From Clostridia bacterium (GTDB lineage: Bacteria > Bacillota > Clostridia > Oscillospirales > Acutalibacteraceae): a stretch of 18,144 nt of DNA. Made by a program: the position numbers and the translations under genes. The stretch spans positions 1-18,144 of the forward strand of contig JAFSBS010000071.1 in the NCBI GenBank assembly GCA_017437165.1, in the 5' to 3' direction. Shown one piece after another: positions 7,382-13,416 of the stretch (positions are counted from its first letter, which is position 1; every line of letters starts with the position of its first letter). The notes beneath the pieces were generated by a model. It was not told where the DNA came from and made no database searches. It was given only the letters and a program-made list of their open reading frames with translations.

Positions 7382-7996
7382 ATGTCAAAGATTATTACAA
7401 TAAGTCGTGAATTCGGTTCAGGTGGCAGAGAGTTAGGCAAACGCCTTGCAGAAGAGTTAGGGGTACCTTGCTATGACTACCAGATAATCGAAATGGTTGC
7501 AGAAAAACAAGGTCTTGACAAAGACTATGTTGAAAATGCAGCCGAAAGAGATATAAGAGCATTTTATCCGACAACTATCGGCGTAAGATTTTCTGCTTCT
7601 ACTTTCTTTATCAATCAGTCTGTTGAGCTTTTTACAGAGCAGACAAAGGTTATAAGAGAACTCGCATCAAAAGGTGACTGCGTAATTGTCGGCAGATGTG
7701 CTGATGTCCTTCTCAATAACGAGGAACTTCTCAATATCTTCGTTTACGCTGACAAAGAATCAAAAATAAAGCGTTGCAAGGAAAGAACAAAACCCGGTGA
7801 AGTGCTTACTGACAAAGATATTGAAAAGAAAATGAAAGAAATTGACAAAGGCAGAGCAGATTTAAGAAAAATGCTTGCAGACACCGCCTGGGGTGACAAA
7901 GAAGGTTATCACCTTATGGTAAATACTTCAGGCAAAGAAATTAAAACTCTTATTCCCGGTCTTGCAGCGTACGCGAGAGCATATTTTTCAAATTGA
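7382..7996 (+). CDS. Cytidylate-kinase-like family protein
   Basis: A 204-residue P-loop protein of the cytidylate-kinase-like family (Cytidylate_kin2). It begins MSKIITISREFGSGGRELGK, where REFGSGGRELGK is the family's form of the nucleotide-binding loop. It continues with YDYQIIEMVAEKQG, a central VIVGRCADVLL, and a lid-like stretch rich in Lys and Arg (SKIKRCKERTK). Members are presumed to phosphorylate nucleotides or related small molecules, but the substrate is not established, so I give no symbol. AAAGGAGGT six bases before the ATG is a very strong ribosome site, and the gene has its own promoter. Its TGA (7994-7996) lies inside the left arm of a repeat element, so the last residues may have been reshaped by that element. 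Confidence 0.85.
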   Translation: MSKIITISREFGSGGRELGKRLAEELGVPCYDYQIIEMVAEKQGLDKDYVENAAERDIRAFYPTTIGVRFSASTFFINQSVELFTEQTKVIRELASKGDCVIVGRCADVLLNNEELLNIFVYADKESKIKRCKERTKPGEVLTDKDIEKKMKEIDKGRADLRKMLADTAWGDKEGYHLMVNTSGKEIKTLIPGLAAYARAYFSN

Positions 7997-8180
7997 GAAT
8001 TGAAAATTCCGGAAACACTACGCATTTGATTATAATTATTTTTGAATAGAAACAACTACATCCTATCATTTTTAGTTGATACTTTAAATGATAGGGTGTT
8101 GTCATTTTTATACATATTCAATTATAATTGCCGACCGCAGGTCCCACAATTTTCAATTTTTAATTTTCAATTCTCAATTA
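7990..8180. repeat. CTATCAT-core element with 7-bp repeat arms, copy 2 (nested type)
   Basis: The whole space between two convergent genes is one inverted-repeat element. AATTGAGAATTGAAAATT (7991-8008) is the perfect 18-bp reverse complement of 8162-8179. Both arms are heptamer arrays: AAATTGA, GAATTGA on the left and TCAATTT, TTAATTT, TCAATTC, TCAATTA on the right. The centre holds CCTATCATTT (8062-8071) / AAATGATAGG (8086-8095). Between arm and core, CGGAAACACTACGCATTTG matches the centre of the element at 9908-10026, as if one element had inserted into another. Both flanking genes stop inside the arms. Confidence 0.85.
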
Positions 8181-8824
8181 AATTTAAACAGCCTCTCATA
8201 CAACTCAACCACCTTAAACCCGACTTTAAACTTACCTTTTGACGAGACTATTTTTTTACCGTCTTCGTCTAAGTATTCTTCTAAAGCGACTGAACTATCT
8301 GTTGTTATATCACCGGTTGCAGCCGGTACACAAAGCGGTGGAAACATTACACACCACCAATTCTTACCCTCTCCGCTACCTAAAACTACTTTTACAGATG
8401 TGTAAACCCCTGCCGGAAAAGTCAGGTCTTCATAAACCCTTGTTGTGTAATATTCTTTACCTAAAGTAATTTTTGCGTTATAGTCAAAACCATTTTCTTT
8501 TAATACTTCGTTTGCACACTTTTCCAATTCAATTTTTGATTTTTTAAAATACTCTTCTGCATTTTCAGGTGTAACTTTATCTGAAAGCAACTCTGTGTTT
8601 TTCTCTAATAGAGCATCACGAACTTTCAGTTTTATTTCTTGGTCTATATCTGAATTACTATCTGCTAAAATATGAAGTCTCACTACACTTTCTCTTATTT
8701 CACCCGAAACAGCGGCAAAATACGTTATCGCAAATGCACAGTAAAGCACAACTGCAATTAACAGAGATGCTAAAAATATTTTGTCACGTTTTTCTTTAAA
8801 TGCTTTATATGTATAAGTTGTCAT
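8174..8824 (-). CDS. spoIIR: Stage II sporulation protein R
   Basis: A 216-residue SpoIIR homologue. In endospore formers SpoIIR is made in the forespore, crosses the membrane and triggers SpoIIGA to process pro-sigma-E in the mother cell. The N-terminus has positively charged residues and one membrane or signal segment (IFLASLLIAVVLYCAFAITY, about 16-35). The conserved family segments IRESVVRLHILADSNSDIDQ, LKVRDALLE and the C-terminal WWCVMFPPLC follow. The ATG at 8824 is chosen because AAAGGCGG lies nine bases upstream; the ATG at 8848 would put that site inside the gene. It follows ispE on the same strand with a hairpin in the 58-base gap. Its TGA lies in the arm of the repeat element at 7990-8180. 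This gene is the best evidence that the host sporulates. Confidence 0.92.
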   Translation of the reverse strand: MTTYTYKAFKEKRDKIFLASLLIAVVLYCAFAITYFAAVSGEIRESVVRLHILADSNSDIDQEIKLKVRDALLEKNTELLSDKVTPENAEEYFKKSKIELEKCANEVLKENGFDYNAKITLGKEYYTTRVYEDLTFPAGVYTSVKVVLGSGEGKNWWCVMFPPLCVPAATGDITTDSSVALEEYLDEDGKKIVSSKGKFKVGFKVVELYERLFKFN

Positions 8825-8867
8825 AAATAAAAACCGCCTTTCGTTCATTGAATGAATTATTGGCGGT
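8825..8867 (-). terminator. Terminator-like hairpin between ispE and spoIIR, overlapping the spoIIR ribosome site
   Basis: Reading leftwards, ACCGCC (8867-8862) pairs with GGCGGT (8838-8833), with a near-palindromic ATTCATTCAATGAA in the loop, and a T-rich tail TTTTTATTT runs into the spoIIR ATG. The 3' strand of the stem includes the GGCGG of the spoIIR ribosome site, so the folded form would both stop transcription and hide the site. Confidence 0.55.
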
Positions 8868-8882
8868 CATTTTTCATTTTAT

Positions 8883-9767
8883 TCAGTTATTTTCAAGAAA
8901 TTTTACTCCTGTATTTTTTCTGTCACAAATATAAACTTTTTTGTAATTCTTTTCTAACTCTTTTTTTGCATTCATAGCATCTTTTTCGTTGAAAAAAATT
9001 CCGTAAATTGCAGAACCTGAACCCGACATACACGCAGCAGATGAATTGTGTTTTCTTAAAACATGTTTAATATCTGCTCTGTCGGGAACTTCAATTACCT
9101 GTTCAAACACATTATCACAATACTTTAATGCATCGTTAAGATTTTCTTCTAAAAGATTTTCTAACATTTCATTATTTTTTGTGTGTTTTAATCTTTCTCC
9201 CAATGAATCAATAGCATCATAGGCTTTAATGGTAGAACTACCACTTTCAGGCTTTACTATAACTATACAACATTCTTTAATATCGGGAAGTGGTGCAACA
9301 ACTGTACCAATATCCTGACAAAGTGCAGTACCACCTACAACACAGAAAGGAATATCTGCACCAACTTTACCACCTATAAACATAAGTGTCCGTTTACTTG
9401 CGTTTACCTCAAAAATTTTATTGAGTGCAACCAAAACTGCGGCACCATCTGCACTGCCTCCACCAAGTCCTGCTTCGTGCGGTATATTCTTTTCAATATG
9501 GATATGAATACCCTTGTCTTTTTCTATTTTAAAATGCTCGAAGAATTTCACAGCACACTTATATACAATATTTTTAGAATCCGTCGGTACGGTTTCATCT
9601 GTACACGAAATAGTAATTTTTTCACCTTTTGTTTTTTCAACTGTTATAACATCTTTTAAACCGATAGATTGCATAACAGTAAAAAGTGTATGATATCCGT
9701 TTTGCTTAACTCCTGTAACATCTAATATTAAATTTATTTTAGCATACGCTTCATAAGTTAACTTCAT
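8883..9767 (-). CDS. ispE: 4-diphosphocytidyl-2-C-methyl-D-erythritol kinase
   Basis: IspE phosphorylates CDP-methylerythritol with ATP, the fourth step of the MEP pathway to isopentenyl diphosphate. The 294-residue length is typical. GHMP-kinase features are clear: the N-terminal AYAKINLILDV with the conserved Lys (10), NGYHTLFTVMQSI, the ATP-binding loop PHEAGLGGGSADGAA (96-110), the catalytic Asp in VGADIPFCVVGGTA, and the C-terminal MSGSGSAIYGIF. GGCAGG precedes the ATG at 9767 at suitable spacing. The order ispE-spoIIR is seen in several Clostridia. The cytoplasmic enzyme is essential in bacteria that rely on the MEP route. Confidence 0.95.
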   Translation of the reverse strand: MKLTYEAYAKINLILDVTGVKQNGYHTLFTVMQSIGLKDVITVEKTKGEKITISCTDETVPTDSKNIVYKCAVKFFEHFKIEKDKGIHIHIEKNIPHEAGLGGGSADGAAVLVALNKIFEVNASKRTLMFIGGKVGADIPFCVVGGTALCQDIGTVVAPLPDIKECCIVIVKPESGSSTIKAYDAIDSLGERLKHTKNNEMLENLLEENLNDALKYCDNVFEQVIEVPDRADIKHVLRKHNSSAACMSGSGSAIYGIFFNEKDAMNAKKELEKNYKKVYICDRKNTGVKFLENN

Positions 9768-9811
9768 TTTTAAACCTGCCTTTTATAGCACTTTTTTTAC
9801 AAATTAGTTGT

Positions 9812-9820
9812 ATTTTACCA
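9812..9820 (-). promoter_or_regulatory. Extended -10 promoter of ispE
   Basis: On the minus strand TGGTAAAAT (9820-9812) is an extended -10 box about 45 bases upstream of ispE. No good -35 is seen at the expected distance. Confidence 0.45.
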
Positions 9821-9881
9821 TATTATTCAAATTAAATAAAGTTTTTTCTTTTATTTTGCTATATTATTTTTTAGAAGTTTG

Positions 9882-9890
9882 TGGTAGAAT
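9882..9890 (+). promoter_or_regulatory. Extended -10 promoter of the PHP gene
   Basis: TGGTAGAAT (9882-9890) is an extended -10 element; no convincing -35 is at 17 bp. A start near 9897 would place the whole repeat element at 9908-10026 in the leader RNA of the gene at 10043. Confidence 0.45.
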
Positions 9891-9907
9891 AGGAAACTGT
9901 AATTTCA

Positions 9908-10026
9908 AAATTGAAAATTAAGAATTGAAAGTTGAAAATTTCGGAAATGCTTCGCATTTGATTATAAATCAAAATATATTACAATTGGCGTCAGCCCCTT
10001 AATTTTCCATTTTCAATTATCAATGG
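9908..10026. repeat. Repeat element with 7-bp repeat arms lacking the CTATCAT core
   Basis: The left arm has heptamers AAATTGA, AAATTAA, GAATTGA, AAGTTGA (9908-9935). The right arm has TTAATTT, TCCATTT, TCAATTA, TCAATGG (9999-10026). GAAAATTAAG (9913-9922) pairs exactly with CTTAATTTTC (9998-10007). The centre contains the hairpin AAATGC-TTC-GCATTT and GGCGTCAGCCCC; the first part matches the inner left flank of the element at 7990-8180. This is the only copy upstream of a gene start. Confidence 0.7.
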
Positions 10027-10042
10027 ATGGTGTATTATATTT

Positions 10043-10858
10043 ATGAACGAAATCAAAATAATCGACTTACACACTCACACAATTAACTCCCCTGACGGAA
10101 ATCACGAAGCATTATTTATGGCAGAAGCTGCAAGGGACAACAAAATTCACACAGTTGCATTTACTGACCATTGTGAAGTAGATTATTATTACAAAGATAA
10201 TTACGACAAAGTTGTTGAAAACAGTTTCAGAGATGTTTCTGCAGTCTCTGAAAAATTACAAGGTCAGATAAACATTTTAAAAGGTATTGAACTTGCTCAA
10301 CCACACTATATTCCTGAATTGGCAAAAGAGATTATTGATTCACACAATTACGATGTCGTTATTGGTTCAATTCATAATTTAAGAGAACAGGAAGACTTCT
10401 ATTACTGGAAAAGTTTTGACGGAATTGACATTGAAGCAACAATGAATGAATATTTTGATGAACTTATAAAAATGCTCGAGTGGGGCAATTTTGAAATTTT
10501 AGCGCACATTACATATCCATTCAGATACATTTATAATATCTGCGGATATGTTGAAGATATTGATAAATATAAAGTTAAAGTAGATGAACTTTTAAAACTC
10601 TGTGCAGAAAAAGATAAGGCATTAGAAATAAATATGGGTGGTCTTAAATACCCTATTAACAAGCCATCACCTGATTTAGAAACAATTAAAAGATATAAAG
10701 AGTTGGGTGGTAAGTTAATCTCTGTAGGTTCTGACTCCCATTATGCTGAAAGAATCGGTTTAAATATTGACAAAGCTTACGAAATTGCAAGACAGGCCGG
10801 GTTTAAATCTGTCGCCACTTTTAAAGACAGAAAAGTATCTGAGTTTGCCATTGTATAA
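10043..10858 (+). CDS. PHP-domain phosphatase, histidinol-phosphatase (HisJ/HisK) type
   Basis: A 271-residue metal-dependent PHP phosphoesterase. Metal ligands visible are DLHTHT (His10, His12), FTDHCE (His43), KGIELAQPHY, GSIHN, LAHITYP and the C-terminal GSDSHYAERIG, the full set for a trinuclear PHP site. Length and motif order match the histidinol-phosphatase HisJ family, which makes histidinol in histidine synthesis. No his genes are adjacent, so another phosphate ester could be the substrate and I withhold a symbol. The ATG at 10043 lacks a good ribosome site; only GGATGG about 13 bases upstream is available. The leader is filled by a repeat element. A 7-codon frame (ATG at 10023) ends in TGA overlapping this start as ATGA, which might give coupling. 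Confidence 0.87.
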   Translation: MNEIKIIDLHTHTINSPDGNHEALFMAEAARDNKIHTVAFTDHCEVDYYYKDNYDKVVENSFRDVSAVSEKLQGQINILKGIELAQPHYIPELAKEIIDSHNYDVVIGSIHNLREQEDFYYWKSFDGIDIEATMNEYFDELIKMLEWGNFEILAHITYPFRYIYNICGYVEDIDKYKVKVDELLKLCAEKDKALEINMGGLKYPINKPSPDLETIKRYKELGGKLISVGSDSHYAERIGLNIDKAYEIARQAGFKSVATFKDRKVSEFAIV

Positions 10859-10868
10859 TAATTACCAT

Positions 10869-10890
10869 ATTATGCAAAATTCTGCATAAT
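10869..10890. other. Perfect 8-bp dyad after the PHP gene
   Basis: ATTATGCA (10869-10876) and TGCATAAT (10883-10890) surround a 6-base loop, starting 11 bases after the stop codon. There is no T run on the plus strand, so it is not a standard terminator; it may be a 3'-end structure or a binding site. Confidence 0.4.
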
Positions 10891-10928
10891 CATCATAAAA
10901 AAATATACATTGTAAAAAATTTACATTT

Positions 10929-11072
10929 GTAAAGCAAGTAACTTTACTTTGTTCATAACCCTGTCAGTTTTGTTCACAAACAGAGCCCAAAATCAAATTT
11001 TATTCTTTTTTGACAAAAAACGAGTAAAGTAATTGACTTTACATTGACAAAGTTATGAACAATTTTCATATT
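10929..11072 (+). promoter_or_regulatory. Promoter and twin operator-like dyads upstream of the pseudouridine synthase
   Basis: Two 19-bp dyads share GTAAAG-N7-CTTTAC (10929-10947 and 11024-11042). TTGTTCATAAC (10949-10959) recurs as its reverse complement at 11052-11062. A promoter TTGACA (11044-11049), 17 bp, CATATT (11067-11072) lies so that the second dyad abuts the -35 and the inverted 11-mer fills the spacer. This suits a repressor contacting paired sites and looping DNA, although no matching regulator gene is in the window. Confidence 0.5.
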
Positions 11073-11100
11073 TTTTCAATGTATATACAGTTGCATATAC

Positions 11101-11125
11101 AAATTGTTAAAAAGTTTAACAATTT
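11101..11125 (+). other. Leader hairpin just before the ribosome site
   Basis: AAATTGTTAAA (11101-11111) pairs perfectly with TTTAACAATTT (11115-11125), loop AAG. It ends 15 bases before GGAGG of the pseudouridine synthase gene. It is AT-only apart from two pairs and might tune translation or mRNA stability. Confidence 0.45.
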
Positions 11126-11150
11126 TAAAATTTTTAAATGGAGGTTTGTT

Positions 11151-12035
11151 ATGAGAGTTTTAGAGTACAATGTGCCGAAAGAATTTTCAGACAGACCTCT
11201 TCTTCATTTTTTAAAAGGTCACCTGAAACTTTCAACAAAAATTGTTCAGTCACTCCGCCATACTGAAGGTTCTGTTACTGCGAACGGCAGAGTTGTCAGA
11301 ATGATTGACAATGTTTATAAAGATGAAACTGTTGTAATAAGAATCCCCGAAAAATCTACACCCCCGCTTCTTTGTGAAATGGAATTAGATATAATTTTTG
11401 AAGATGAAGATATTTTGGTTTTAAATAAACCGGCAGGAATTTCTGCCCACCCTACAAGACGACACCCTAACGGTACACTTGCAAACGGTGTTGCTAATTA
11501 CATTATAAAGAATGGTGGCAGCGAAGCGGCAGGCAGAGCAATAGGCAGACTCGATAAAGGTACTTCGGGCGTTATTGTTTTTGCAAAAAATTCTCTTTCT
11601 GCGTTCAGGTTGAACGGAAAAATCGAAAAAACATATTATGCACTTGTAAAAGGCGATATTGCTGAAACAGGTACTATTGATACACCAATTTACCGACCCG
11701 ACCCAAATAAAACATTGAGAGCAGTTTCTTCTACAAGAGAAGATGCACTCCCTGCCACTACACATTGGCAACTTGAAAAGCGAAATGGTGACAGAGCATT
11801 ATTAAAAGTAAATATTGAAACAGGCAGGACCCATCAGATAAGAGTGCATTTTGCTTCAATTGGTTTTGCACTTATCGGTGACGATATGTATGGTGGCGAG
11901 GTTACAGAAAATCTTTCCCGCCCGGGTCTCCATTGTGGCAAAGCAGAATTTATTCACCCGACGAGTGGCGAAAAGATGATTTTTCATGCAGAACTGGCGG
12001 AGGATATAACCAAGGAACTAGGAATTAGAAACTAG
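11151..12035 (+). CDS. RluA-family 23S/tRNA pseudouridine synthase
   Basis: A 294-residue pseudouridine synthase of the RluA family, which isomerises specific uridines in rRNA or tRNA. The catalytic motif is GRLDKGTSG (132-140) with Asp135. Other family segments are VLNKPAGISAHPTRRH (90-105), KTYYALVKG, and TGRTHQIRVHFASIGFALIGDDMYGG written here in two parts. The N-terminal ~65 residues have an S4-like look (RPLLHFLKGHLKLSTKIVQSL, in shorter form FLKGHLKLS). The ATG at 11151 is chosen because GGAGG sits six bases upstream; a longer frame from 11055 would translate the promoter and leader hairpin. The final residues LGIRN and the TAG stop come from the repeat arm at 12015-12043. Which RNA site is modified cannot be told. 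Confidence 0.9.
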   Translation: MRVLEYNVPKEFSDRPLLHFLKGHLKLSTKIVQSLRHTEGSVTANGRVVRMIDNVYKDETVVIRIPEKSTPPLLCEMELDIIFEDEDILVLNKPAGISAHPTRRHPNGTLANGVANYIIKNGGSEAAGRAIGRLDKGTSGVIVFAKNSLSAFRLNGKIEKTYYALVKGDIAETGTIDTPIYRPDPNKTLRAVSSTREDALPATTHWQLEKRNGDRALLKVNIETGRTHQIRVHFASIGFALIGDDMYGGEVTENLSRPGLHCGKAEFIHPTSGEKMIFHAELAEDITKELGIRN

Positions 12036-12158
12036 GAATTAGGTGTTATAGAAATAACTTCATTCTATCATTTTTAGTTGATACTAAAAAACAACTTTAA
12101 ATGATAGGATGTTTTCATTTTTGCGAAGCCCTAATTCCTAATTCCTAGTTTCTGATTT
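12015..12158. repeat. CTATCAT-core element with 7-bp repeat arms, copy 3
   Basis: The left arm is GAACTAG, GAATTAG, AAACTAG, GAATTAG (12015-12042). The right arm is CTAATTC, CTAATTC, CTAGTTT, CTGATTT (12131-12158), the reverse-complement consensus. Seventeen bases (12027-12043) pair perfectly with 12137-12153. The core CTATCATTT (12065-12073) / AAATGATAG (12099-12107) also has an inner AGTTG/CAACT stem. The left arm supplies the stop codon of the upstream gene, and the element separates it from the rplU promoter. Confidence 0.85.
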
Positions 12159-12159
12159 C

Positions 12160-12191
12160 TGAAAATAATTTGGGTAACAAAATTATTTTCA
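12160..12191. other. 12-bp hairpin directly before the rplU promoter
   Basis: TGAAAATAATTT (12160-12171) and AAATTATTTTCA (12180-12191) pair perfectly around an 8-base loop, ending four bases before the -35 box. With no T run after it, it is a weak terminator candidate for read-through from upstream, or a binding site for a regulator. Confidence 0.4.
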
Positions 12192-12195
12192 CCCC

Positions 12196-12224
12196 TTGAC
12201 AAATTGTTTTCTATCTGCTAAAAT
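12196..12224 (+). promoter_or_regulatory. Promoter of rplU-prp-rpmA
   Basis: Perfect TTGACA (12196-12201), 17-bp spacer, TAAAAT (12219-12224) with TGC before it. The expected start near 12231 gives an 84-base structured leader. Confidence 0.75.
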
Positions 12225-12230
12225 ATCATA

Positions 12231-12306
12231 CGCCGCATATTAAGGGCGAGGTATATTCTCACAAACACATAAGTGTGCCTTGTTAGCGAGACTGAAAGAA
12301 AGCAGG
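12231..12306 (+). promoter_or_regulatory. Probable L21-type ribosomal-protein leader
   Basis: Between the promoter and rplU lies a leader with small stems: CGCC (12231-12234) / GGCG (12245-12248) and ACAC/GTGT (12265-12276), followed by CCTTGTTAGCGAG. Firmicutes often carry an L21 leader here, through which L21 is thought to regulate its own operon. I assign it by position and fold, not by alignment. Confidence 0.5.
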
Positions 12307-12314
12307 TAAAAACT

Positions 12315-12626
12315 ATGTACGCAATCATTGAAACAGGCGGTAAGCAATACAAAGTTGAGAACGGCGATGTTATTTTCATCGAAAAACTCGACGTTGAAGC
12401 TGACGCAGAAATAACTTTTGATAAAGTTATTGCAATTGGCGCAGAAGATGGCATTAAAGTTGGCGCTCCATACGTTGATGGTGCTTCTGTTGGCGCAAAG
12501 GTTATTAAGAACGGCAAAGGCAAGAAAATTGTTGTTGCTACTTACAAACCAAAGAAAAATGAGAAACGCAAGATGGGTCATAGACAACCATACACAAAGG
12601 TTGAAATTTCAGCTATCAATGCGTAA
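12315..12626 (+). CDS. rplU: 50S ribosomal protein L21
   Basis: A 103-residue protein, the normal length for bacterial L21, a 23S rRNA-binding protein of the large subunit. It begins [20 protein letters not shown] and keeps the C-terminal signature [15 protein letters not shown]. The ATG at 12315 has AGCAGG eight bases upstream; an in-frame extension from 12273 would run into the leader structure. The stop TAA shares its last base with the ATG of prp (TAATG), so the two are translationally coupled. Confidence 0.97.
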
Positions 12627-12940
12627 TGACAAAAGCAACATTTTATTTTGACGGAGATGTTCCTTACGGTTTCTTAATTACAGGTCATTCAGGTTTTGCT
12701 GAAGAGGGTGAAGACATTGTCTGTGCTTCCGTTTCTTCTGCAAGTTATATGGTAGCGAATACCATAACAGAGATTTTAAAGGTAAATGCTGAAATCAATG
12801 TGAATGATGCAAGAATGAAACTCATAGTAAACAAGGAACAAAGACATATCACAAAGGATATCTTACTTGGTTTAAAACTTCATTTAGACAGTTTAGCAGA
12901 AGATTATCCGAAGTTTTTAGAAACACTTACGGAGGTGTAA
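12626..12940 (+). CDS. prp: Ribosomal-processing cysteine protease Prp
   Basis: A 104-residue YsxB/Prp protein. Prp removes the N-terminal extension of L27 in Firmicutes and relatives, a step needed because the extension blocks the peptidyl-transferase centre. The catalytic pair is visible as His21 in GHSGFAEEGEDIVCASVS and Cys33. It sits between its usual partners, overlapping rplU by one base and ending four bases before rpmA, whose ribosome site lies inside the prp 3' end. The substrate site in the neighbouring L27 (INIQLF before AHKKG) agrees with this role. Confidence 0.95.
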   Translation: MTKATFYFDGDVPYGFLITGHSGFAEEGEDIVCASVSSASYMVANTITEILKVNAEINVNDARMKLIVNKEQRHITKDILLGLKLHLDSLAEDYPKFLETLTEV

Positions 12941-12943
12941 CGA

Positions 12944-13228
12944 ATGCTTAAGATTAATATCCAATTATTTGCTCATAAAAAAGGTATGGGTTCTACACGT
13001 AACGGCCGTGATTCAGAGTCTAAAAGACTTGGTGCTAAACGTGCAGACGGTCAACACGTTCTTGCAGGTAACATCCTTGTAAGACAAAGAGGTACAAAAA
13101 TCCACCCAGGCACAAACGTTGGTAAGGGTAAAGATGATACATTATTTGCTCTTGTTGACGGTCAGGTTCGTTTTGAACGCCTTGGCAAAGACCGTAAAAA
13201 AGTTAGTGTTTACACAGTAGAGCAATAA
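12944..13228 (+). CDS. rpmA: 50S ribosomal protein L27 with cleavable N-terminal extension
   Basis: A 94-residue L27, whose mature N-terminus reaches towards the peptidyl-transferase centre. It starts MLKINIQLF followed by [19 protein letters not shown]. The nine-residue extension ending in QLF matches the Firmicute form cut by Prp before AHKKG. GGAGGTG overlaps the end of prp and precedes the ATG at good spacing. The usual following gene obgE is absent; a strong terminator comes 12 bases after the stop. Confidence 0.97.
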
Positions 13229-13240
13229 GAAAAAAATACA

Positions 13241-13275
13241 AAACCACTGGTTTAACCAGTGGTTTTTATTTTTTT
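13241..13275 (+). terminator. Intrinsic terminator of the rplU-prp-rpmA operon
   Basis: AAACCACTGG (13241-13250) and CCAGTGGTTT (13256-13265) form a perfect 10-bp stem with a TTTAA loop, then a long T tract to 13275. It is the clearest terminator in the window. Confidence 0.92.
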
Positions 13276-13416
13276 AGGGACTGGGGATTAGAGTCTAGGG
13301 ATTAGGGCTTCACAAGAAATAAAAAACCTATCATTTAAAGTCAGAGTTAACCATAAACGATAGGATGAATTTATTTCTACAACAACTGATTCCTAGTCCC
13401 CAGTCCCTAGTCCCTT
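13275..13416. repeat. CTATCAT-core element with 7-bp repeat arms, copy 4 (inverted)
   Basis: The left arm has TAGGGAC, TGGGGAT, TAGAGTC, TAGGGAT, TAGGGCT (13275-13309). The right arm has CTGATTC, CTAGTCC, CCAGTCC, CTAGTCC (13386-13413). Thirteen bases, 13275-13287, pair perfectly with 13397-13409. The core CCTATCATTTA (13327-13337) / TAAACGATAGG (13354-13364) has one mismatch. Its reverse complement matches copy 3 over TAGAAATAA.TTCAT.CTATC and GAAGCCCTAAT, so it is inserted the other way round. It lies between the converging rpmA and gtrA-like genes. Confidence 0.85.

Follow-up and report, generated by a model that had tools for sequence, protein, structure and literature searches.

The window analysed here is an 18,144-nucleotide stretch from a Clostridia bacterium (assembly GCA_017437165.1, contig JAFSBS010000071.1), contig 20 of an assembly of 1.93 Mb in 457 contigs that is 81% complete (G000, the own genome). 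Its intergenic regions carry copies of a repeat built on a core hairpin, which in three copies is bracketed by arms of tandem 7-bp units (heptamers). An initial annotation of the window had described four cores and proposed a dispersed family of armed hairpins. All four are real (582-622, 8063-8094, 12065-12107 and, in degenerate form, 13328-13363), and the features of the window are as follows.

7990-8180, unstranded: element 1, in the convergent region between a cytidylate-kinase-like gene (plus strand) and SpoIIR (minus strand); AATTGAA-type arms; fold z -7.6
7990-8008, plus strand: left heptamer arm of element 1, which runs over the kinase stop codon (7994-7996)
8063-8094, unstranded: core hairpin of element 1, CTATCATTT...AAATGATAG
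8133-8143, plus strand: mini-hairpin of element 1, GACC-GCA-GGTC after TATAAT, with a GNA triloop and a C-G closing pair
8147-8179, plus strand: right heptamer arm of element 1
12013-12165, unstranded: element 2, between a pseudouridine synthase gene (plus strand) and rplU (plus strand); GAATTAG-type arms; fold z -10.9
12065-12107, unstranded: core hairpin of element 2
12123-12129, plus strand: mini-hairpin GCGAAGC of element 2, in the interval from core to right heptamers (by eye)
13274-13416, unstranded: element 3, in the convergent region between rpmA (plus strand) and a GtrA-family gene (minus strand); GGGACTAG-type arms; fold z -6.5
13328-13363, unstranded: core hairpin of element 3, its right side degenerate (AAACGATAG)
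13240-13276, plus strand: ordinary intrinsic terminator of rpmA (by eye), directly before element 3
578-626, unstranded: bare core hairpin without heptamer arms (core match 582-622); fold z -7.4
9907-10027, unstranded: core-less heptamer-armed unit in a divergent intergenic region, with mini-hairpins by eye; fold z -2.2

The longest perfect inverted match between the two arms of a copy is 18 bp in element 1 (7991-8008 with 8162-8179), 17 bp in element 2 (12027-12043 with 12137-12153) and 13 bp in element 3 (13275-13287 with 13397-13409), the lengths given in the initial annotation; the best matches in shuffled flanks are 11, 10 and 8 bp, respectively. Arms taken from different window copies match over just 5-11 bp, which bears out the claim that arms differ between copies, and the three armed copies fold far lower than shuffled sequence. 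The bare core at 578-626, whose longest inverted flank match is 6 bp, sits 3' of a small minus-strand open reading frame (ORF) that looks ribbon-helix-helix-like by eye, and an identical core is found at the orthologous site of the related genome G019. The core-less unit at 9907-10027 folds weakly, its arms matching over 10 bp where shuffles reach up to 9.

The core is a multicopy sequence. Searching the own genome with the pattern CTATCAT N8-36 ATGATAG gave 52 cores, against 0 with the reversed pattern as control. A stricter pattern was run on 60 genomes, 22 of the genus (own genome included) and 38 of other genera; cores turned up in six of the 22 (45 in the own genome, and 50, 60, 99, 11 and 50 in the others), with 0 in the remaining 16 and 0 in the 38 from other genera. 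Counts and controls from these exact patterns are clean, with degenerate copies undercounted. The initial annotation was prepared to abandon the family if the genome held no further copies or if its arms paired no better than shuffled sequence; many further copies exist, and the arms of the three armed window copies pair far better than shuffles. Among the 60 genomes scanned by exact pattern, the core is confined to this genus. A frequent mini-hairpin variant behind TATAAT is more widely spread, occurring in 13 of 99 genomes, all of this genus, and since seven of these lack the core, the core is the narrower module. Among the matches listed, the named metagenome-assembled genomes with several are Oscillospiraceae bacterium SIG561, SIG595 and SIG596 and Clostridia bacterium RGIG6294, the last from sheep rectum according to its record title; many single core matches in unrelated species, also among those listed, are read as chance. 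Judging from the named genomes, the window organism may well live in the gut. The low-copy genome G016 (13 cores) holds mostly a shorter core subtype of 27-29 nt, for example CTATCATTTAAACAACATGAAAATGATAG.

Core anatomy was compiled from 152 cores at loci of the own genome, G012, G001 and G019, with 50 of the 52 own cores retrieved by script together with their flanks. Lengths of 36, 37 and 42 nt dominate (33, 36 and 33 cores). Seven stem pairs are set by the search pattern itself; the flanking triplets and an internal mismatch are not. The triplets covary (ATC/GAT in 62 cores, GTT/AAC in 46, ATT/AAT in 18), and the stem contains a conserved 2x2 mismatch, A.A on one strand, at which Watson-Crick pairs occur in just 6-27% of cores. 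Mean folding energies on the two strands are -22.2 and -22.1 kcal/mol, compared with -6.4 kcal/mol for shuffled sequence, and the 12 nt starting 5 nt past GATAG are 64% and 69% T. The 152 cores hence possess what is expected of a bidirectional terminator: on either strand a stable hairpin and, beyond it, a T-rich tract. Outside the core, many copies show by eye a common order of A/T-rich arms, ATTATAAT, mini-hairpin and heptamers. The mini-hairpins, the conserved mismatch and the link to terminators all go beyond the initial annotation.

Cores are found predominantly at the 3' ends of genes. In 40 stretches of G012 and G001 that were picked for holding cores, with genes called by a simple ORF caller with an 80-aa cut, 38 of 68 cores lie in convergent and 26 in tandem regions; of the others, 1 is in a divergent region, 1 falls within an ORF and 2 could not be placed. 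Among 50 own copies the distribution is 30 convergent, 13 tandem, 2 divergent, 2 in ORFs and 3 at edges; one of the two divergent cases is the window core at 578-626, which in reality follows the small ORF, itself below the 80-aa cut. With cores masked, we searched for ordinary intrinsic terminators under strict settings at four thresholds. Such terminators are present in 36/48 core-less convergent regions but only 13/98 core-bearing ones (own loci included, p=2e-13), and the contrast is retained at all four thresholds (p at most 1.2e-9). As a control, a terminator was called in 2/98 of the core-bearing regions after shuffling. Excluding own-genome loci, the counts are 35/46 and 12/66 (p=1.4e-9). 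Of 11 core-less convergent regions missed at the second threshold, 7 or 8 contain a hairpin by eye and 3 look like ORF-calling errors. That ordinary terminators are mostly lacking at core-bearing convergent sites suggests that a spreading repeat took over their role.

We consider it likely that the elements belong to one repeat family, dispersed between genes, that its core hairpin is a bidirectional intrinsic terminator, and that the family spreads or is exchanged between gene 3' ends. A transcript arriving from either side would fold into one and the same long hairpin (about -22 kcal/mol) before reaching a T-rich tract, which is available in both directions because A-rich DNA precedes the core and T-rich DNA follows it. 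The family would spread, or be swapped, among gene 3' ends, above all those of convergent pairs, where the core would replace the ordinary terminator and one member would often be displaced by another at the same site. Copy number, anatomy, position, the way cores and ordinary terminators exclude each other at convergent pairs, the empty sites and the swaps between species are directly supported, and from these we infer that the cores would terminate transcription in the cell.

Several points weigh against this interpretation. In tandem regions ordinary terminators are about equally frequent with and without a core (11/43 and 75/256, p=0.72), and some sites, rpmA among them, have both. The uninterrupted stem with several G-C pairs of a conventional terminator is absent from the core, whose stem is A/T-rich and carries the 2x2 mismatch; 10/134 cores score as conventional terminators on one strand and 6/134 on the other. 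The A.A mismatch is superfluous for a plain terminator and suggests recognition of one strand. Exclusion on its own would also be expected of an element targeting and destroying terminators, although two filled sites read side by side showed no terminator halves. Neither G016 nor G019, both empty at the tandem rplU site, has an ordinary terminator there by eye. Finally, the stretches were selected for cores, so the terminator counts do not give the share of gene pairs that use them.

Comparison of orthologous sites, read by eye across species, yielded empty sites, which the initial annotation had suggested seeking in sister strains. In G016 the kinase site of element 1 lacks an element and holds an ordinary terminator, a hairpin and T tract by eye; G000 and G019 share one element, with a different right half in G019, and G001, G012 and G002 carry other members with other heptamers. 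At the rpmA site an element is present in five of the six core-bearing genomes and absent from G016, and the ordinary rpmA terminator is also found in G001, G012 and G019. G001 and G012 share the core at this site, and because the left arm of G001 differs from that of G012, the arms of G001 are mismatched, showing that mismatched arms exist. At the rplU site the interior of element 2 recurs in G001 in the opposite orientation (score 29 forward and 62.5 reversed, of 99), G012 and G002 carry other members, and G016 and G019 have none.

The own genome and G019 were compared at 21 sites (18 found from the own side, 3 from the G019 side only). Flank identity at the 18 own-side sites is 83-99%, bar two sides (78% and 68%). 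Where both genomes have a core (n=19), 11 pairs are near identical, 3 have diverged and 5 involve another member. Opposite own core C50, G019 has no core and an ordinary bidirectional terminator (hairpin and T tract by eye), as it also has opposite the G001 core C15, and for one G019 core the own site holds other arrays instead. Less clear are the own copy C34, opposite which G001 has heptamers and a different hairpin, and a G012 copy opposite which G019 has an extra gene; one further alignment is doubtful. One degenerate match, L045, lies within a gene and was discarded because it is not a true core. Taken together, these comparisons indicate that many sites persist while their contents change. 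Read by eye, filled and empty sites differ by replacement, without clean insertion boundaries, and no target-site duplication is seen in these comparisons between species.

The heptamer arms follow a strict spacing. G012 and G001 intergenic sequence (494 regions, 77,111 bp) contains 122 arrays of period 7 and 71 of period 14, and the remaining periods between 3 and 13 give 0-4 each. The STRR heptamers of cyanobacteria are likewise 7-bp tandem repeats dispersed between genes, and the present arrays resemble them in being intergenic and of strict 7-bp period. Period-7 arrays occupy 142 of the 230 flanks of 115 copies, and lie on both sides in 45 copies. The claim that arms match within a copy stands for 27 of these 45, at 80% or more, compared with 21.8% of mismatched pairings, and 0 of 20,000 permutations reached the observed mean; it fails for the other 18, apparently in part because units are nested or chained. 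With an alternative cut (41 copies) p is 5e-4, and a copy's own partner has a median rank of 14.5 of 41 and is best or tied best in 10%. Arm matching is therefore a tendency and no strict rule. Together with the 52 own-genome cores, these matches bear out a dispersed family of armed cores with matched arms. Arrays are also copied as blocks, one imperfect 30-mer recurring exactly at many places in one genome.

Mini-hairpins accompany the arms. Stems of at least four pairs follow ATTATAAT at 84 of 376 sites, compared with 34 of 376 after shuffling. Among 115 triloop stems of at least three pairs, some of which are surely chance, 55 have a GNA loop and 4 a TNC loop, placing GNA mini-hairpins on the outward strand, and 75 have a C-G closing pair. 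Their stems occur in compensated versions, including GACC-GCA-GGTC, AAC-GCA-GTT, AAGTCC-GCA-GGACTT and AAGGC-GAA-GCCTT. The idea of an ancestral compact form, with mini-hairpins either side of one ATTATAAT, is not supported by the counts, which are 9 for the core genomes, several being head-to-tail chains, and 1 for the core-less genomes.

That the three armed window copies fold strongly and that pairs in the cores covary could also be explained by a structured RNA family, riboswitch-like or a small RNA, with long arms kept by compensatory change. We regard this as highly improbable: the window has 0 Rfam matches at the gathering threshold, the elements lie mostly 3' of genes, the genes adjoining them in the window have functions unrelated to one another, the arms match in just 27 of 45 copies, and modules are exchanged at orthologous sites. 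Compensatory change had also been offered by the initial annotation as a cause of differing arms. Between own and G019 orthologs, arrays indeed differ in places by 7 bp and some arms by single bases, but the presence of other members at orthologous sites also explains differences, and the alignments, judged by reading without a model, do not support compensatory point change as the main cause.

The armed core seen three times in the window, presented as one design in the initial annotation, consists of separable modules: bare cores, core-less armed units and, in core-less congeners, mini-hairpin units all occur. Because modules are separable and swapped, a single fixed element with fixed arms is rejected. 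Terminal inverted repeats common to all copies, as in miniature inverted-repeat transposable elements (MITEs), are lacking, the outer arms varying by copy. The heptamer arms and mini-hairpins may belong to the machinery of spreading and not to termination. Matched arms could result from arrival as a two-armed unit or from copying of one arm from the other across the palindrome, a process known for quasi-palindromes during replication. Read most simply, the core would terminate transcription from both sides and the armed unit would be mobile, or have been so in the past.

Mobility raises the possibility that the family is a selfish, non-autonomous MITE- or REPIN-like element that inserts at terminators or hairpins, its hairpin serving transposition, with strand-specific recognition through the A.A mismatch, and terminator loss being a by-product of where it inserts. 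The conserved, strand-asymmetric mismatch, the GNA mini-hairpins on the outward strand, the nested and chained units and the empty sites are all consistent with this account, and the near absence of cores from divergent regions is in keeping with purifying selection. A protein that recognises single-stranded DNA or RNA is also hinted at by the mismatch and by the strand specificity of the mini-hairpins. At two filled sites read side by side, however, no terminator halves were seen, T-rich tails are present on both strands, no target-site duplication is evident by eye, and no partner transposase was found in the one family tested. As a replacement for the terminator interpretation we judge it unlikely; the two are compatible and differ chiefly in who benefits.

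The transposase family tested was PF01797 (Y1), across the 22 genomes of the genus. The elements are dispersed imperfect palindromes in inverted arrangement, as in REP and REPIN families, and tens of copies of inverted intergenic hairpins, together with a RAYT-like gene in G012 and G019, would suit movement by a RAYT, a Y1 transposase. Y1 matches above the cut-off occur, though, in just 2 of the 6 core genomes and RAYT-like genes also in the core-less G007 and G021, the RAYT flanks in G012, G019 and G007 bear GGGGACGGTT repeats of their own, and 0 of 8 Y1 loci scanned contain a core. The absence of Y1 from four core genomes is weak evidence because these are 80-82% complete. Overall, a RAYT partner is not supported and largely refuted by this search, and we give it very little chance. 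Below-cut-off PF01797 matches in G002 and G016 are probably false, the ORFs being AraC-like by eye. The GGGGACGGTT repeats that flank the RAYT-like Y1 genes are a separate repeat family (L238 1088-2800 in G012, L237 850-1800 in G019, L244 1190-2400 in G007), and the 3' flank of the G012 gene (L238) is repeated about three times.

Returning to the core as terminator, a bolder version is that a selfish family spreads by carrying a bidirectional terminator, that it took over many convergent pairs in one clade, that its members displace each other and that arms are rewritten as matched pairs across the palindrome. We put this forward tentatively and with some doubt; if true, a mobile element would have been domesticated as the ordinary 3'-end signal of many genes.

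Uptake sequences, which are widespread also as single copies, offer a further explanation for a short word found in inverted pairs. In 1.13 Mb chosen for cores, the 9-mer CTATCATTT occurs 180 times paired and 51 times unpaired, against an expected total of 20, and many of the unpaired occurrences look by eye like half-degenerate hairpins. The word is not over-represented singly as well as paired, and we reject the uptake-sequence explanation, the least probable of those considered. What speaks for it is the design known from Neisseria, where, in the part of the report available, closely spaced inverted pairs of one short uptake word work as rho-independent terminators (PMC2397512). The present family shares with it the short word, the inverted pairs and, probably, the terminator role, but its word lies mostly within a hairpin, and that hairpin has a conserved internal mismatch and often sits inside a larger unit with heptamer arms and mini-hairpins.

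Other known systems resemble parts of the family, as far as the accessible portions of their reports go. REPINs and REP sequences with RAYT are dispersed intergenic inverted hairpins with proposed non-autonomous spread (PMC3116915); the present family differs in its heptamer-array arms, in terminator substitution and in that no RAYT association was found. The GGGAATC heptamers of Xanthomonas form mostly intergenic arrays, the majority with four units; inverted pairs number 70 and 75, and most sites are common to two species while array length varies (PMC4692102). Intergenic heptamer arrays in inverted pairs are thus a shared feature, but there a single G-rich type is used and the portion available describes no common core hairpin, whereas many heptamer types and a core are found here. 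Geobacter metallireducens has multicopy sites of tandem 7- and 8-mers, the 8-mers paired on opposite strands across a variable gap; these short, paired arrays are similar, but they are predicted regulator-binding sites, and no terminator core is described in the part available (PMC2700814). The TAACTGA repeats of Beggiatoaceae and cyanobacteria are also dispersed intergenic 7-bp tandem repeats, but direct arrays, in Beggiatoaceae mostly just upstream of start codons, with no paired arms round a hairpin in the portion available (PMC4679880). A survey of stem-loop repeats in 40 genomes covers the general intergenic class and suggests those based on DNA uptake sequences as terminators; the portion available does not name the present lineage, and its families were not matched one by one (PMC2267715). 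Each half of the design therefore has a precedent, terminator pairs in Neisseria and paired arrays in Xanthomonas and Geobacter. A literature search found in print neither the combination of core and arms, nor the variable arm type, nor the exclusion of ordinary terminators, and nothing on repeat-driven terminator replacement or on such elements in Clostridia, although such reports may still exist.

The usual view is that intrinsic terminators evolve individually. Here a repeat family has apparently replaced them at many sites in one clade, so that terminator turnover can be followed in a natural comparison of sister species with and without a core. With a fixed 7-bp period and a sequence that changes from copy to copy, the paired heptamer arrays are a tractable case of the 7-bp repeats that are described, in the part of the source available, as abundant in bacteria and little studied (PMC4692102).

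In a genome from another family within the order (L277, about 957-1060), TTTTCAA-type heptamer arrays form an inverted pair by eye, and heptamer arms may consequently reach beyond this genus. In L291, 3' of a kinase-gene stop codon (about 2115), a ACTTGCAC tandem array has period 8, not 7. Half-cores with a single CTATCATTT arm stand beside CAGTGGT-type heptamers, like a split core (L261 about 19216-19306, L253 about 1772-1864, L216 about 6630), and a further dispersed repeat with GCGATATA words adjoins cores in L203 (near 14400) and L254 (near 9100).

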